From Roseobacter sp. CCS2 (GTDB lineage: Bacteria > Pseudomonadota > Alphaproteobacteria > Rhodobacterales > Rhodobacteraceae), in contig NZ_AAYB01000002.1 in NCBI RefSeq assembly GCF_000169435.1, positions 806,001 through 870,000 on the forward strand: a stretch of DNA of 64,000 nt, read 5' to 3'. Positions 19,338 to 27,231 of this stretch are shown in pieces. Within the stretch, counting starts at the first letter, position 1, and the number at the start of each line of letters is the position of its first letter. The position numbers and the translations under genes are program-made. Under the pieces are notes generated by a model. The model was not told where the DNA came from. It saw only the letters and a program-made list of their open reading frames with translations, and searched no databases.

Positions 19338-19442
19338 TGTCGTGTGGCCATGACCTGCTTTCAACGCAGGTGGCGCATCTAAGTGACGCAGTAAAATATT
19401 TCCTCTTGCTACCTGTGTCTGCGTTTGCGAAACAAAAGTCAC

Positions 19443-19536
19443 CACAGGGGAGCCGCGTCATGCCGCGGCTGAGATGAGGGCGCAAGCCTTCGGACCCTCA
19501 AAGCTGATCTGGATAATGCCAGCGTAGCAAGGAGGA
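19443..19536 (+). ncRNA. TPP riboswitch (THI element)
   Basis: Conserved aptamer blocks appear in the right order: GGGGAGCC, CGGCTGAGATGAGGGC, GGACCCTC, then CTGATCTGGATAATGCC and AGCGTAG. The P3 arm carries CGCAAGCCTTCG. The 3' P1 strand runs into AGGAGG, the Shine-Dalgarno sequence of ykoF (ATG at 19544), so TPP binding should hide the ribosome site. An upstream stretch CCTCTTGCTAC (19402-19412) is complementary to GTAGCAAGGAGG (19524-19535) except for one bulge and could form an alternative or extended pairing. It controls the thiamine-precursor uptake operon. Confidence 0.95.
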
Positions 19537-19543
19537 CATATAG

Positions 19544-20152
19544 ATGTTTGCAGGCGCACAAGTATCCCTTTATCCGATGACCGACGGGTTCGTTGACGTG
19601 ATTTTATCATCGCTCAGCGCGCTTGATCCGTGGCGCGACCGGCTGCGGATTGAAACGGATGAAATCTCAACTCTCATTGTTGGCCCGCCCGAGGTGCTGT
19701 TTCCCGCCTTGCGCGATCTTTACGTTAGCGCGGCTGCATCCGGGGCTCATGTTGTTTTGCGCTGCACGCTGTCGCGCGGTTGCCCCGGCGAACCGGATGA
19801 TCCGATTTGCCAGACTGGGGCTTTGGCGAACCCATCAGAACCGCTAACTCAGCGCCAAGCGGCTGCTTTGGCCGCCATTGCGGCGACCCCGGAAAGAGGG
19901 CAGATCGCTGATGCCCAATTTTCGCTATACGTGATGGGCGCAGGCGATCACATGGCCGAGATCATGGGATGTATCGACTTTCTGAAACAAAGCGGCACCT
20001 TTGATCGGTCCAAGAACTTCTGCACCCGTCTGACCGGCGATGCAGGTCCGGTTTTTGCCACCCTGCAACAGGCGTTTTGCCAGTTTGGCCCGCCAAATGG
20101 CCATGTCACGGTTGATCTGACGGTTTCTGCCAACAGCCCATCCAAGCGCTGA
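19544..20152 (+). CDS. ykoF: YkoF family thiamine/HMP-binding protein
   Basis: A 202-residue soluble protein made of two related halves (AQVSLYPMTDGFVDVILSSLSAL and AQFSLYVMGAGDHMAEIMGCIDFL), each an ACT-like ferredoxin fold as in Bacillus YkoF, which binds thiamine and its pyrimidine HMP. Its position directly behind a TPP riboswitch and before an ABC importer matches the predicted thiamine-precursor role. It has no signal peptide, so it would act in the cytoplasm. A consensus AGGAGG lies inside the riboswitch end. Confidence 0.85.
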   Translation: MFAGAQVSLYPMTDGFVDVILSSLSALDPWRDRLRIETDEISTLIVGPPEVLFPALRDLYVSAAASGAHVVLRCTLSRGCPGEPDDPICQTGALANPSEPLTQRQAAALAAIAATPERGQIADAQFSLYVMGAGDHMAEIMGCIDFLKQSGTFDRSKNFCTRLTGDAGPVFATLQQAFCQFGPPNGHVTVDLTVSANSPSKR

Positions 20153-21682: not shown

Positions 21683-22668
21683 AACACATCATCACCGCTG
21701 CATTCATCGCCTTGGCACTGCCTGCAACAGCACAGGAAAAACTCAGCGTCGCGCTGGACTGGACGTCCAACACCAACCACGTGGGGCTGTATGTGGCGCA
21801 AGCCAAAGGCTGGTTTGCTGAGGCCGGGCTGGACGTCGATATCCTGCCTTACACAGACACATCGTCGGTCACTTTGATCGCTGCGGGCGTGGCAGAGTTC
21901 GGCATTTTGAGTGCGGTAGGCTTTTACACACAGCGCGCAACGGGGGCGGATATAACCGCCGTGATGGCGGTTGTGCAGCACGAAACCGGGCGCTTGGTCT
22001 TTAACGGCGAACGCGACGACATCCAGCGGCCCGCTGATCTGGACGGGATGATCTATGCGGGCTTCGGCAGCGCCTGGGAAGACGCGCTGATCTCAACCAT
22101 CATCCGCAATGACGGGGGTACGGGCGAATTTGACACAGTCACACTTGGCACTTCAGCTTACGAGGCCTTGGCAAACGGCCGGGTCGATTTCACGCTAGAG
22201 GTCAGTACATGGGAAGGCGTTAATTCAGTTCTGCTGAACCGGCCACAACGTGCCTTCCGCTATGCCGACTATGGCGTGCCCGACCAGCACACCACGTTTC
22301 TGGGTGCCAACGCCACATGGTTGGCGGAAAACCCTGAAATGGCCACAGCCTTTGTCCAAGCGGCACAGCGTGGCTATGCCTTTGCGGCAAACAACCCGGA
22401 CGAGGCCGCCGATATCCTGATCGCGGAAACAGCAGGCATGCTCACAAACCCCGACTTGGTGCGCGCGTCTATGCAAGCGCTGATTACGGGCGGATATTTG
22501 CAAGACGCAGGGGAACCTGTGGGGCTGATTGATGACGGCATGATCGCCGATATTACGCAATTCCTGTTTGAGGCAGGGATCATGCGGGCCGAAGACGGGC
22601 GCCCGCTTGACGTGATGCCTGATGTGTCTGACTGGTACACGAATGAATTCTTATTGCGAGAGGAGTGA
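21679..22668 (+). CDS. thiY: ABC transporter substrate-binding protein, NMT1/THI5-like (ThiY)
   Basis: A 329-residue periplasmic binding protein with signal peptide (cleavage near residue 18, ATAQE). KLSVALDWTSNTNHVGLYVAQAKGWFAEAGLDV is the classical NMT1/THI5-like start, shared with formylaminopyrimidine-binding ThiY and yeast HMP synthase. GSAWEDALI and the CxxP-free ligand lobe follow. It overlaps thiZ by four bases. As last gene of the riboswitch-controlled operon it should be repressed by TPP. Confidence 0.92.
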   Translation: MKHIITAAFIALALPATAQEKLSVALDWTSNTNHVGLYVAQAKGWFAEAGLDVDILPYTDTSSVTLIAAGVAEFGILSAVGFYTQRATGADITAVMAVVQHETGRLVFNGERDDIQRPADLDGMIYAGFGSAWEDALISTIIRNDGGTGEFDTVTLGTSAYEALANGRVDFTLEVSTWEGVNSVLLNRPQRAFRYADYGVPDQHTTFLGANATWLAENPEMATAFVQAAQRGYAFAANNPDEAADILIAETAGMLTNPDLVRASMQALITGGYLQDAGEPVGLIDDGMIADITQFLFEAGIMRAEDGRPLDVMPDVSDWYTNEFLLREE

Positions 22669-22830
22669 AAGCTGTTCCCGGTCGGGTGGGATTTCCTGCC
22701 TATGTCCATGTAATGGCAGTTGTTCATGCAATACGCAGCATTGATCACTATAGGCTCAGACCGGACTTTGTGCGGAAGACATTGTTCTTAATAAGGTACG
22801 ATAAAGCCCTGTCCGACCTTCTCAACAAAA

Positions 22831-22866
22831 AACGGCCATGCCCGGGAGGAGGTGGGCATGACCGTT
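22831..22866 (-). ncRNA. CCTCCTCCC hairpin 6 (last) and terminator of the cuckoo-type sRNA array
   Basis: On the minus strand the arms AACGG-CATGCCC / GGGCATG-CCGTT pair over 12 bp with one mismatch and expose ACCTCCTCCC in the loop. The 3' arm runs into TTTTTT, so this hairpin also acts as the terminator of the whole minus-strand transcript. The 9-mer lies at 22844-22852. The stretch from here left to thiY (22669-22830) shows nothing recognisable. Confidence 0.8.
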
Positions 22867-22877
22867 CTTATTGATCA

Positions 22878-22912
22878 GCGCCCGCCCAAAAAGGGAGGAG
22901 GAGGGCAAACGC
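22878..22912 (-). ncRNA. CCTCCTCCC hairpin 5
   Basis: Arms GCG...GCCC and GGGC...CGC close a loop with CTCCTCCTCCC followed by five T on the minus strand; the motif core lies at 22893-22901. The stem is weaker than in the other units. Confidence 0.7.
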
Positions 22913-22922
22913 GTCCTCGCTG

Positions 22923-22950
22923 GCGTTGCTCGGGAGGAGGTGAGCGCGGC
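22923..22950 (-). ncRNA. CCTCCTCCC hairpin 4
   Basis: GCTC/GAGC plus a G-T-containing extension closes a loop ACCTCCTCCC on the minus strand; motif at 22932-22940. Confidence 0.75.
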
Positions 22951-22962
22951 TAGCGGTATGAT

Positions 22963-22995
22963 CGGTTCCAACCCGGGAGGAGGTGGGCGGTTCCG
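22963..22995 (-). ncRNA. CCTCCTCCC hairpin 3
   Basis: CCC/GGG next to the loop and a CGG/CCG plus CC/GG outer helix with internal mismatches on the minus strand; motif at 22975-22983. Confidence 0.7.
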
Positions 22996-23013
22996 AAACT
23001 GGTTTCATAAAGC

Positions 23014-23043
23014 GGCGACATCCGGGAGGAGGTGGATGCCGCC
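23014..23043 (-). ncRNA. CCTCCTCCC hairpin 2
   Basis: GGCG-CATCC and GGATG-CGCC pair over nine of ten positions around ACCTCCTCCC on the minus strand; motif at 23024-23032. Confidence 0.78.
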
Positions 23044-23056
23044 ACCTTATTGAAGA

Positions 23057-23088
23057 CCCAAAACCTCGGGAGGAGGTGAGGCGTTGGG
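23057..23088 (-). ncRNA. CCTCCTCCC hairpin 1 (first after the DUF1127 gene)
   Basis: CCCAA/TTGGG and CCTC/GAGG helices, separated by a small internal loop, present ACCTCCTCCC on the minus strand; motif at 23068-23076. It follows the DUF1127 gene and its 3' hairpin. Confidence 0.75.
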
Positions 23089-23097
23089 CCGTGTCCA

Positions 23098-23127
23098 GAT
23101 CTGCCTAAAGGGACGAGGCGGCAGATC
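23098..23127 (-). terminator. Hairpin between the DUF1127 gene and the sRNA array
   Basis: GATCTGCC and GGCAGATC form a perfect 8-bp stem with a 14-base loop, 12 bases past the DUF1127 stop. There is no T-tract, so it is more likely an RNA-processing or stability element, or a partial terminator, separating the mRNA from the small RNAs. Confidence 0.5.
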
Positions 23128-23139
23128 CGAATGCTTGAA

Positions 23140-23355
23140 TTACTTGCCGTAGGCCGCCTCATGGGCGATGGCTTTGATCATGCTGCGCGAAATGCCCAAA
23201 TCGGCAAGGTCGCGTGTGGAAAGTGTTTCCAGCTCGGACAATGTTGTCCGGTAGGTTTTGCGTTTTGCGGCGTTGTCAGCAAGCTGCGCGCGAAAGGCGG
23301 CGAAGCGCATGGACAAGGAAGTGCCAGCAAGGAATGTTTCTGTGTGTGCGGTCAT
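23140..23355 (-). CDS. DUF1127 small protein (CcaF1-like)
   Basis: A 71-residue protein with a basic N-terminal helix and the DUF1127 motif at about 42-68 (LSTRDLADLGISRSMIKAIAHEAAYGK). In Rhodobacter sphaeroides a DUF1127 protein, CcaF1, is co-transcribed with the stress-induced CcsR small RNAs and acts as an RNA-binding protein; the same gene-then-CCTCCTCCC layout is seen here. It is divergent from the apbC gene. A heat-shock (RpoH) promoter is expected by analogy, but no convincing one was found in the 250-base gap. Confidence 0.88.
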   Translation of the reverse strand: MTAHTETFLAGTSLSMRFAAFRAQLADNAAKRKTYRTTLSELETLSTRDLADLGISRSMIKAIAHEAAYGK

Positions 23356-23605
23356 ATTACTACTCAGTATTATTTAGAATGCAGCGGCTTGTGCCGTGCT
23401 GTTGTGACTAGGATGTATGATTATGCTGCGGCTGCACAATAACCTTTTGCGCAATGCTGCCATGCAGAAAGTGCATAAACATTGCTGACCTATTGTCATC
23501 AATCTGTCGTAATTTTGTGCATCTGTTTCCAAGCCCTTGTGCTTTGCCCAAAACGTGCCAGATGATGGATAGAATTTAGACACTTTTGAAACTTGAGGTC
23601 TCAAT

Positions 23606-24679
23606 ATGGCTGTTACACGCGATGAAATTTTAGGCGCGCTGTCGCGACTCACTTTGCCCGGCGGCGATGATCTGGTGTCGCGTGACATGGTCCGCGCTTT
23701 AAATATAGAGGGTGGTACGGTTCGTTTTGTGATTGAGGCTGCGGATCCGGGTGAAGCGTCCAAGATGGATGGTGTCCGCCGGGCCGCCGAAGATATCGTG
23801 CGCCGTCTGCCAGGGGTGGAAAGTGCGACTGTTGTTTTAACCGCCCATGGTCCGGCCCCCAAAGCACCAGAGCCGCCATCGTTGAAAATTGGGCGCCACC
23901 CGACGCCACAGGCTGGACCGGCAAAGGTTTCGGGGGTTGATCGCATATTGGCGATAGGTTCAGGCAAAGGCGGTGTGGGCAAATCAACCGTTTCCTCAAA
24001 CCTTGCGGTGGCCTTGGCCCGTGAAGGGCGCCGTGTTGGTCTTTTGGATGCAGATATTTATGGCCCGTCCCAGCCCCGCATGATGGGCGTGAACAAACGC
24101 CCCGGCAGTCCTGATGGGAAAACGATTATTCCGTTGCAGGCGCATGGCGTCACTATGATGTCGATCGGTCTGATGATGGAAGAAGGTAAAGCTGTTGTGT
24201 GGCGTGGCCCAATGTTGATGGGGGCTTTGCAGCAGATGCTGGGTCAGGTGCAATGGGGTGAATTGGACGTGCTGATCGTTGATTTGCCGCCCGGTACCGG
24301 TGATGTGCAGTTGACGCTTTGCCAGAAGACTGAACTGACAGGGGCGGTGATTGTCAGCACCCCGCAAGACGTTGCATTGCTGGACGCGCGCAAGGCACTG
24401 GATATGTTCAATTCATTAAACACGCCCGTGCTGGGCATGATCGAGAACATGTCGACTTTCGTGTGTCCGACCTGCGGGACGGAATCGCACATCTTTGGGC
24501 AGGGTGGTGTTGCGGCTGAGGCCGAAAAGATCGGCGTGCCGTTTCTGGGTGCTTTGCCGATTGATCTGGAGACACGCCTTGCGGGTGACAGTGGTACGCC
24601 GATTGCAGCGGGCGATAGCCCTATGGCAGATGCGTACCGTGCCATGGCGCGACGCTTTATTGAAGGTGGCATTGCTTGA
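23606..24679 (+). CDS. apbC: Mrp/ApbC family iron-sulfur cluster carrier ATPase
   Basis: A 357-residue P-loop ATPase that binds and transfers Fe-S clusters to apoproteins in the cytoplasm. N-terminal MIP18-like (DUF59) domain about 1-80; deviant Walker [12 protein letters not shown] at 118-128; [25 protein letters not shown]; and the cluster-binding CPTC (C287, C290). GAGG lies seven bases before the ATG. The next gene overlaps its stop by four bases. Confidence 0.94.
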
Positions 24680-25668: not shown

Positions 25669-25702
25669 GGCGGATTGATCAGTGGCAGCAGATCAATCCG
25701 CC
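25669..25702 (+). promoter_or_regulatory. Perfect 12-bp hairpin in the mraZ leader
   Basis: GGCGGATTGATC and its exact complement GATCAATCCGCC flank a ten-base loop. It ends 51 bases before the mraZ start and has no T-tract, so it may affect mRNA stability or read-through of the 16-gene cluster rather than simply terminate. Confidence 0.5.
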
Positions 25703-25753
25703 GTTCTCACATCTAAGGCAAATTTCCGGGGGCAGGTTGAGGACCGAGGGACA

Positions 25754-26248
25754 GTGGTTCTGAGTTTTACAGGCGAACACACCCAAAAGGTGGACGGTAA
25801 GGGGCGCATGTCGATCCCTGCCGATTTTCGTCGCGTGCTCGAATCTGGTGACCCTGAATGGACCACAGGCCTATCCCCGCGCATGTACCTTCTTTACGGT
25901 GATCATCTGAAAAACCAACTGCATGGCTATACGGTCGATGAATTCAATGCGGTTGTGGCCCAGATCAACGCGCTGCCGCGCGGGTCTGCCGATAAGAAGA
26001 AACTGTCGCGTTTGATCATTGGTCAGTCCATCAAGCTGGACGTTGATAAGGACGGGCGCACGGTCATGCCGATCAAGCAGCGTCAAAAGCTGGGGCTGAA
26101 AGATGGTGAGCTGACGTTCAGCGGGCTGGGTGACCATTTTGAGATTTGGAAAGCCGAGACATTTCATAAAGAGGTCGCGGATGACCTTTCCGGCTGGCTC
26201 GATGAACAGGAGGATGGCTATGATCCGCTTATCCTGTTGGATGGCTAA
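25754..26248 (+). CDS. mraZ: Transcriptional regulator MraZ
   Basis: DNA-binding AbrB-like protein that regulates the dcw operon. The start is placed at the GTG giving [27 protein letters not shown] (164 aa), because family members begin within a few residues of the GE-x-x-x-K-x-D-x-KGR motif and GAGGA lies ten bases upstream; an in-frame ATG-less extension to 25682 would run through the leader hairpin. Two MraZ half-domains are visible (the second with [16 protein letters not shown] and [11 protein letters not shown]). First gene of the cluster, two bases before rsmH. Confidence 0.9.
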
Positions 26249-26250
26249 CG

Positions 26251-27231
26251 ATGTCTGCTGCCGCTGAAACCTCACCTCATATTCCTGTTTTGATTAGACC
26301 GCTCATCGCAGCGGTCTCGCCCGTTTCTGGGGTCTGGTTGGATGGGACGTTCGGGAACGGTGGATATACGCGCGCATTGCTAGCCGCTGGGGCGGATAAG
26401 GTGATTGGCGTGGACCGTGATCCGCTGGCGTTTGAAATGGCCGCCGATTGGATTGGCGACTATGGCGACCGGATCAAAACGGTGGCTGGCGTATTTTCTA
26501 AACTAGACGAATATGGCGCTGATCTGGACGGTGTGGTGTTGGACCTTGGCGTTAGTTCGATGCAACTTGATCTGGCTGAGCGTGGTTTTTCGTTCATGCG
26601 CGATGGCCCGCTTGATATGCGGATGAGCCAAGACGGGCCGTCGGCCGCTGATCTTTGCAATGACGCGGATGAGGCTGAACTGGCTGATATCATCTACCTT
26701 TACGGGGAAGAGCGTGCATCGCGCCGGATTGCAAAGGCCATTGTGGACGCGCGTCCGCTGACGACCACGTTGCAATTGGCGAAAATCGTTGAGGGCTGTT
26801 TGCCCCGATCAAAGCCCGGTCAATCACATCCCGCAACACGCACATTCCAAGCGCTGCGTATCGCGGTGAACAACGAATATGGCGAATTGGCCGAAGGCTT
26901 GATGGCCGCAGAACGTGCATTGAAGCCCGACGGGCAGTTGGCCGTTGTGACTTTCCATTCGGTCGAGGATCGGATGGTGAAACGTTTCTTGCAGGCACGG
27001 TCGGGCAATACGGCGAATGCGAACCGTTATGCGCCCGAGATTGAACAGGTGACACCCGCCTGGCGCATTGAAAAGCGCAAGGCGATTGGGCCAGATGAGG
27101 CGGAATTGGCCGAAAACCCGCGTTCGCGTTCAGCCAAGCTGCGCGTGGCGAGCCGCACGGATGCGCCGGCTGAACCGATTGATCCGGCGAAGCTCGGCAT
27201 GCCGATGAAAAAGAAAAAGGGGGGCCGGTAA
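26251..27231 (+). CDS. rsmH: 16S rRNA (cytosine1402-N4)-methyltransferase RsmH
   Basis: SAM-dependent methyltransferase (formerly MraW), 326 residues, modifying C1402 in the ribosomal P site. [15 protein letters not shown] starts the domain; the SAM motif [46 protein letters not shown], and the late [13 protein letters not shown] are typical. The C-terminus is basic (KKKKGGR). It is two bases after mraZ and one base before ftsL. Confidence 0.97.

Follow-up and report, generated by a model that had tools for sequence, protein, structure and literature searches.

The closest described systems are small RNAs built from successive hairpins that share a loop motif. In the cuckoo family, as summarized from Reinkensmeier and Giegerich (2015) in PMC4504443, two to four hairpins have helices without sequence conservation and a conserved loop motif. 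The portions of PMC3927594 on which we draw describe this loop as an anti-Shine-Dalgarno sequence, report a variable number of hairpins, and treat the Rhodobacter sphaeroides RNAs as relatives. Together with PMC10253847, also cited from excerpts, they had already published the layout with a DUF1127 gene upstream, the precedent of stress-related small RNAs, and the CCUCCUCCC loops, and the Rfam entry for CcsR1 bears the title "Conserved CCUCCUCCC motif stress-induced RNA 1." According to excerpts of the same literature, the R. sphaeroides ccaF1-CcsR promoter depends on RpoHI/RpoHII (PMC10253847), CcsR1-4 are handled by RNase E and PNPase (PMC7866481), and NfeR1 of Sinorhizobium meliloti silences ntrB, an effect that is abolished when its three loops are mutated (PMC10746234).

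Here, we analyzed a 64,000-nucleotide stretch of the Roseobacter sp. CCS2 genome (the window), in which the original prediction had placed a six-hairpin array of this kind. We conclude that the array is of the cuckoo/CcsR type and is a further member of the locus kind published as "CIN1." A CcsR-type array is thus present in a Yoonia-like genome, and the variation among such arrays can be followed across the family. To the published picture we add a seventh hairpin, evidence that some arrays grew in blocks, and a conserved upstream element.

Seven hairpins behind a DUF1127 gene

The run of hairpins begins, as had been proposed, behind a DUF1127 gene. The features are listed in the order of the minus strand, with z giving stem stability relative to shuffled sequences and pair changes counted across nine aligned sequences.

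23140..23355, minus strand: CcaF1-like DUF1127 gene, 71 aa (Pfam PF06568, 38.3 bits, cut-off 23.3, E 1.1e-9)
23094..23131, minus strand: hairpin H1, loop CCTCGTCCC at 23110-23118; z -3.1; 1 pair changed on both sides
23055..23090, minus strand: hairpin H2, motif 23068-23076; z -2.6; outside the covariation count
23009..23048, minus strand: hairpin H3, motif 23024-23032; z -5.4; 2 pairs changed on both sides
22962..22996, minus strand: hairpin H4, motif 22975-22983; z -0.4; 10 pairs invariant in 9 sequences
22918..22955, minus strand: hairpin H5, motif 22932-22940; z -1.1; 3 pairs changed on both sides
22878..22912, minus strand: hairpin H6, motif 22893-22901; z -0.9; 4 pairs changed on both sides
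22827..22869, minus strand: hairpin H7, motif 22844-22852, T run 22832-22827; z -5.8; 4 pairs changed on both sides

The encoded protein is 89% identical to that of Yoonia maricola, its closest relative among the matches listed, which suggests, from this single gene, an origin of the window in Yoonia or a closely neighboring genus. R. sphaeroides CcaF1, in the part of PMC10253847 cited here, also has 71 aa.

The original prediction of six minus-strand copies of CCTCCTCCC, each in a separate hairpin loop and 39 to 49 bases apart, was borne out by direct counting. The six exact copies compare with a mean of 0.33 in 100 shuffles of the 64-kb window, none of which reached six; their spacings are 44, 49, 43, 39, and 49; and a fold of the 325-nt minus strand places each copy in its own loop, with every base unpaired at a probability of at least 0.94. 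The 3.5-Mb genome contains seven exact copies, six of them at the array and the remaining one alone on contig C11. The predicted number of hairpins held for the units with exact loops but not for the total, which rises to seven with an extra first hairpin, H1, whose loop CCTCGTCCC differs from the motif by one mismatch. In 8/8 close relatives aligned, the H1 loop is CCTCCTCCC, in contrast to CCTCGTCCC here, and the H6 loop, exact here, is altered in 8/8. Since a Yoonia metagenome-assembled genome outside that alignment (L016) has six exact motifs at nearly the same spacings (44, 47, 43, 39, and 47), the loop state of this array may be shared with it.

As anticipated, the array ends in a hairpin followed by six T (TTTTTT at 22832-22827), and it is likely that H7 and this T run double as an intrinsic terminator; H7 was not among the hits of a generic terminator scan, which accepts loops of up to 8. 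Tandem Repeats Finder returned no repeat within the array itself, the units thus being too diverged, and periodicity in hairpin similarity was not significant in this array (lag 3; 295/300 permutations as high). Read on the opposite (plus) strand, the motif copies at 22844-22860 and 23024-23038 form perfect Shine-Dalgarno sequences ahead of an ATG, which can mislead gene finders.

Conservation of the stems

The arms of the hairpins were said to differ while still pairing, and comparison with relatives agrees. Fourteen of 68 pairs had changes on both sides across the nine aligned sequences, compared with 7.0 in shuffles (0/500 as high), a control that by the tool's own warning overstates significance for related sequences; controls with slid partners gave 1 to 4 such pairs. 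Across the nine sequences, 99.0% of cells in the 68-pair structure were paired. One of five covariation measures, that of further pair types, was not above shuffles (321/500 at least as high). H2 was left out of the structure because its arms are misaligned in the alignment; the RNAalifold pairs for its columns, 8/76, were dropped, and some of them linked distant columns.

Judged singly, the stems of H1, H2, H3, and H7 were more stable than shuffled sequences and those of H4, H5, and H6 were not (z values above). Covariation in the alignment supports the predicted stems of H5 and H6. Over 110 related loci, 792/818 motif copies lay in a hairpin loop closed by at least four pairs, compared with 206/818 after shuffling of the flanks, although the 818 copies are not all independent since some of the loci (L043/L090, L066/L110) appear to be the same places.

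Family assignment

The features that define membership are present: successive CCUCCUCCC-loop hairpins with variable stems and a short DUF1127 gene upstream on the same strand. With Rfam models run in E-value mode, ar14 (RF02344) matched H5-H7 at 55.5 bits (E 2.8e-9; gathering score, 58.8), ar7 (RF02342) matched the minus strand at 40.8 bits (E 1.8e-6), also under its gathering score, and CcsR1 (RF02791) reached at best 31.5 bits (E 1.1e-5; gathering score, 65.3), its model aligning end to end over both H2-H3 and H6-H7. These matches and the DUF1127 layout uphold the cuckoo/CcsR reading. The covariance-model check proposed for it had a divided outcome: the array scored above background, with no unrelated family in that scan doing better than E 0.067, but at gathering scores Rfam gave no match for the array. 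Among 16 related loci scanned, four (L008, L011, L015, and L018) passed the ar14 gathering score; L009 and L016, both from Yoonia, fell short of it, and none passed that of CcsR1. On H1-H3 of the Y. maricola ortholog, ar14 scored 62.1 bits.

Distribution and growth of the arrays

Three or more exact motifs with the spacing of an array occurred in 85/295 sampled genomes of the family, compared with 7/295 for a reversed-pattern control; G294, the other genome of the same genus among the 295, had no array by this strict pattern. In a second set, the best 80 of 148 DUF1127 loci in relatives, 75 had one or more motifs, 68 three or more, and 55 six or more, with a median of 7 and a maximum of 23, and the longest array among the loci examined had 26 motifs (L091 of G165). 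The copy number, which had seemed undescribed, therefore falls within the normal range, and seven hairpins are ordinary. A series of arrays reaching 26 motifs within one family offers a natural test of hairpin number against regulatory dose.

Some of these arrays have grown by blocks. Tandem Repeats Finder detected a 140-bp block with three hairpins in L091, a 174-bp block with four in Loktanella atrilutea (L023), and a 77-bp block with two in L105. Hairpin similarity was periodic in 26/79 arrays (at most 15/300 permutations as high), with a period of 4 in thirteen, 3 in six, 2 in six, and 5 in one; in the other 53 it was not significant. Spacings in L081 and L083 alternate near 40 and 67, the pattern expected of two-hairpin RNAs, in contrast to the even spacing here. 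In Kandeliimicrobium roseum (L087, 2647-3414), exact motifs are mostly 114-123 bases apart rather than about 40, a pattern that might arise if the exact loop survives in just every third hairpin.

Linkage to the DUF1127 gene and genomic context

We also approached the linkage from the motif alone, fetching 30 loci out of the 85 genomes with matches. A DUF1127 ORF lay upstream on the same strand in 28/30; the two exceptions are L089, where no such ORF was detected, and L094, where the ORF follows a three-motif array (1500-1945) instead of preceding it. None of the genome's three other DUF1127 loci has an exact motif nearby; next to one of them there is a single copy with one mismatch.

In 63/73 array loci, and also in 4/7 loci without an array, the 1.2 kb upstream contains a divergent mrp/apbC-like gene. 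The window has the same layout, with an Mrp/ApbC-like gene at 23606-24679 (plus strand) divergent from the DUF1127 gene. On the other side, ABC permease-like and SsuA-type substrate-binding-protein-like genes (matches below curated cut-offs), preceded by a TPP riboswitch at 19436-19548 (plus strand, 62.2 bits), end at 22668, convergent with the array. Genes at 25682-27231 (plus strand) look like mraZ and rsmH, and a dcw cluster may therefore begin some 2.3 kb away from the DUF1127 gene. In R. sphaeroides, the leader of the dcw cluster carries the small RNA UpsM, according to the excerpt of PMC8625941 cited here.

A conserved element upstream of the DUF1127 gene

The less expected part of the locus is its conserved promoter element, which consists of two features.

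23457..23467, minus strand: box CTGCATGGCAG (CTGC-N3-GCAG), conserved upstream of the DUF1127 gene
23413..23439, minus strand: TTGTGCA (23433-23439), GCAGCAT, and a CATACAT-like -10 region; candidate RpoH-type promoter, sigma factor inferred

TTGTGCA and TACAT are invariant in the nine aligned sequences. Among array loci of the DUF1127-found set, for which 7/80 loci with fewer than two motifs were left out (three of those seven had the box), TTGTGCA occurred in 46/73 upstream regions, our own included, against 2.7 expected from background windows, and CTGC-N3-GCAG occurred within 350 bases upstream in 53/73, against 3/365 background windows. The two are held at a nearly fixed distance: of 48 pairs of box and TTG(T/C)GCA lying 20-40 bases apart, 44 were at 28 or 29 bases and 4 at 20. 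Allowing one mismatch in the box, with TTGNGCA 27-30 bases on, recovered 60/73 array loci and 0/189 background windows.

The element also leads back to the array. Box plus TTGTGCA at 27-30 bases matched in 134/295 genomes, usually once, compared with 2/295 for the reversed pattern. Thirty loci found in this way, out of the 134 matching genomes, had the loop motif downstream in 27 cases and a DUF1127 ORF within 700 bases in 24, with L230, probably anchored at the wrong place, scored as a miss.

In 99 anchored upstream regions, the -10 pattern matched only 15, and a TTAGC signal, which we take to be CceR-like, was present in 23. A generic sigma-70 scan returned no promoter upstream of the DUF1127 gene. 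RpoHI and RpoHII promoters have TTG and TAT elements, as excerpted from PMC10673084 and PMC3441632, and the combination of TTGTGCA with a subsequent CTACAT/CTATCT-like element would match these.

The box itself resembles, in its sequence, that of the carbon-storage regulator PhaR. CTGCATGGCAG fits the R. sphaeroides PhaR site CTGCNNNGCAG, as quoted in PMC12542648, but fails the S. meliloti PhaR core YGCRNYGCR given in the same excerpt, having a purine at the second Y position; N3 is ATA or ATG in 48/53 boxes, which therefore break the S. meliloti consensus at this one position. The box alone is weak evidence because the genome contains 132 palindromes of this form, compared with 38 matches to the reversed pattern. 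PhaR is present in 285/295 genomes, and its co-occurrence with the element is thus uninformative. An element match occurs in two of the 10 genomes without PhaR, G098 (84% complete) and G003, that of G003 departing from the consensus and maybe due to chance; G150, which is complete and has an array, has neither PhaR nor the element. Titles and abstract openings among the literature matches listed gave no PhaR link to DUF1127, CcsR, or ccaF1.

Elsewhere in this genome (L206, 765-803), two CTGC-N3-GCAG boxes stand 28 bases apart before a gene beside phaR (PF07879) that we read from its sequence as phasin-like, a distance equal to that from box to TTGTGCA ahead of the DUF1127 gene.

One speculative reading, which we consider unlikely, is that CTGCAT(A/G)GCAG with TTGTGCA 28-29 bases on would be the operator/promoter of most Rhodobacteraceae CcaF1-cuckoo loci, recognized by PhaR or by another regulator whose site is similar. 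Carbon-storage state and heat-shock sigma factors would then set the dose of anti-Shine-Dalgarno hairpins, and block duplication would tune array length (up to 26 motifs) in each species. In any case, the element gives a concrete handle on control of the small RNAs, beyond the RpoH promoter known in R. sphaeroides.

Proposed mechanism and alternative explanations

Very probably, by analogy with its relatives, this cuckoo/CcsR-type array would be cotranscribed with the CcaF1-like gene under stress and cut by RNase E, its anti-Shine-Dalgarno loops blocking ribosome sites. The anatomy, the conserved stems and loops, and the linkage to the gene and the upstream element were computed here; transcription, stress induction, processing, and targeting are carried over from R. 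sphaeroides CcsR and S. meliloti NfeR1. A stress-inducible promoter would yield one transcript with the CcaF1-like DUF1127 gene and seven 3'-UTR hairpins, and transcription would stop at the last of these, H7 serving as the terminator. The DUF1127 protein could bind this precursor and help or tune RNase E, whose cuts in the short linkers would release units of one to three hairpins. By pairing with ribosome-binding sites of the GGAGG type, the loops would then prevent several mRNAs from being translated.

The loops of 5/7 hairpins are CACCUCCUCCCG and therefore have CACCUCCU in common with GGATCACCTCCTTTCT, which we take to be the 3' tail of 16S rRNA and which occurs once in the genome. This identity is not universal: among relatives, the two bases before the motif are CT in 264 cases and CA in 143. 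Pairing must usually use part of the loop because GGAGGAGG lies 2-14 bases ahead of an ATG at only six sites genome-wide, two of them within the array; that search gave no convincing targets. Candidate sites of the forms GGGAGG-N4-10-ATG (99, compared with 18 for the reversed pattern) and GGAGGA-N4-10-ATG (139, compared with 14) are mostly ordinary Shine-Dalgarno sequences and name no target.

Alternatively, the main role of the array might be that of a sponge whose repeated loops titrate a protein (the DUF1127 protein, Hfq, or RNase E) instead of base-pairing with mRNAs. The many near-identical loops per transcript, with up to 26 motifs in a relative, would suit such a role, as would the report, in the excerpt of PMC10253847, that CcaF1 binds RNA and affects CcsR levels; however, NfeR1 silences mRNAs through this same loop motif, in a manner that depends on the loop sequence, according to the part of PMC10746234 cited here, and we regard a mainly titrating array as distinctly improbable. 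We give far less credence to an extragenic palindromic repeat of the REP/BIME kind, or to 3' hairpins that stabilize the transcript without a function in trans. Palindromic units directly behind a gene and block duplications in relatives are in keeping with these, but the loop is conserved while differing stems stay paired, and 6/7 exact copies of the genome are confined to one locus. That the repeats code for part of a small protein can be dismissed: open frames do overlap the array on both strands, but relatives differ by single-base indels inside it and its stems show compensatory changes.

Comparison with known systems

As a cuckoo/CcsR-type array, the locus is most like R. sphaeroides CcsR1-4/ccaF1 (CIN1), with which it shares a 71-aa DUF1127 gene upstream, codirectional CCUCCUCCC-loop hairpins, and a terminator, here a likely one, at the end. 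It differs in having seven evenly spaced hairpins, compared with four RNAs that are described as two-hairpin in the excerpt of PMC3927594 (of RS0680a), and, unlike R. sphaeroides CcsR, it has a mutated first loop and scores 31.5 bits with the CcsR1 model against a cut-off of 65.3. With the rhizobial alpha-r14/NfeR1/SmelA075 RNAs it shares several hairpins with an identical loop motif and variable stems, although NfeR1, as excerpted from PMC10746234, stands alone as an RNA of three hairpins and has a sigma-70-type promoter, whereas here the hairpins form a 3'-UTR array. Like the cuckoo RNAs as a whole, it combines variable helices with a conserved loop motif, extending the two to four hairpins of the PMC4504443 summary to seven.
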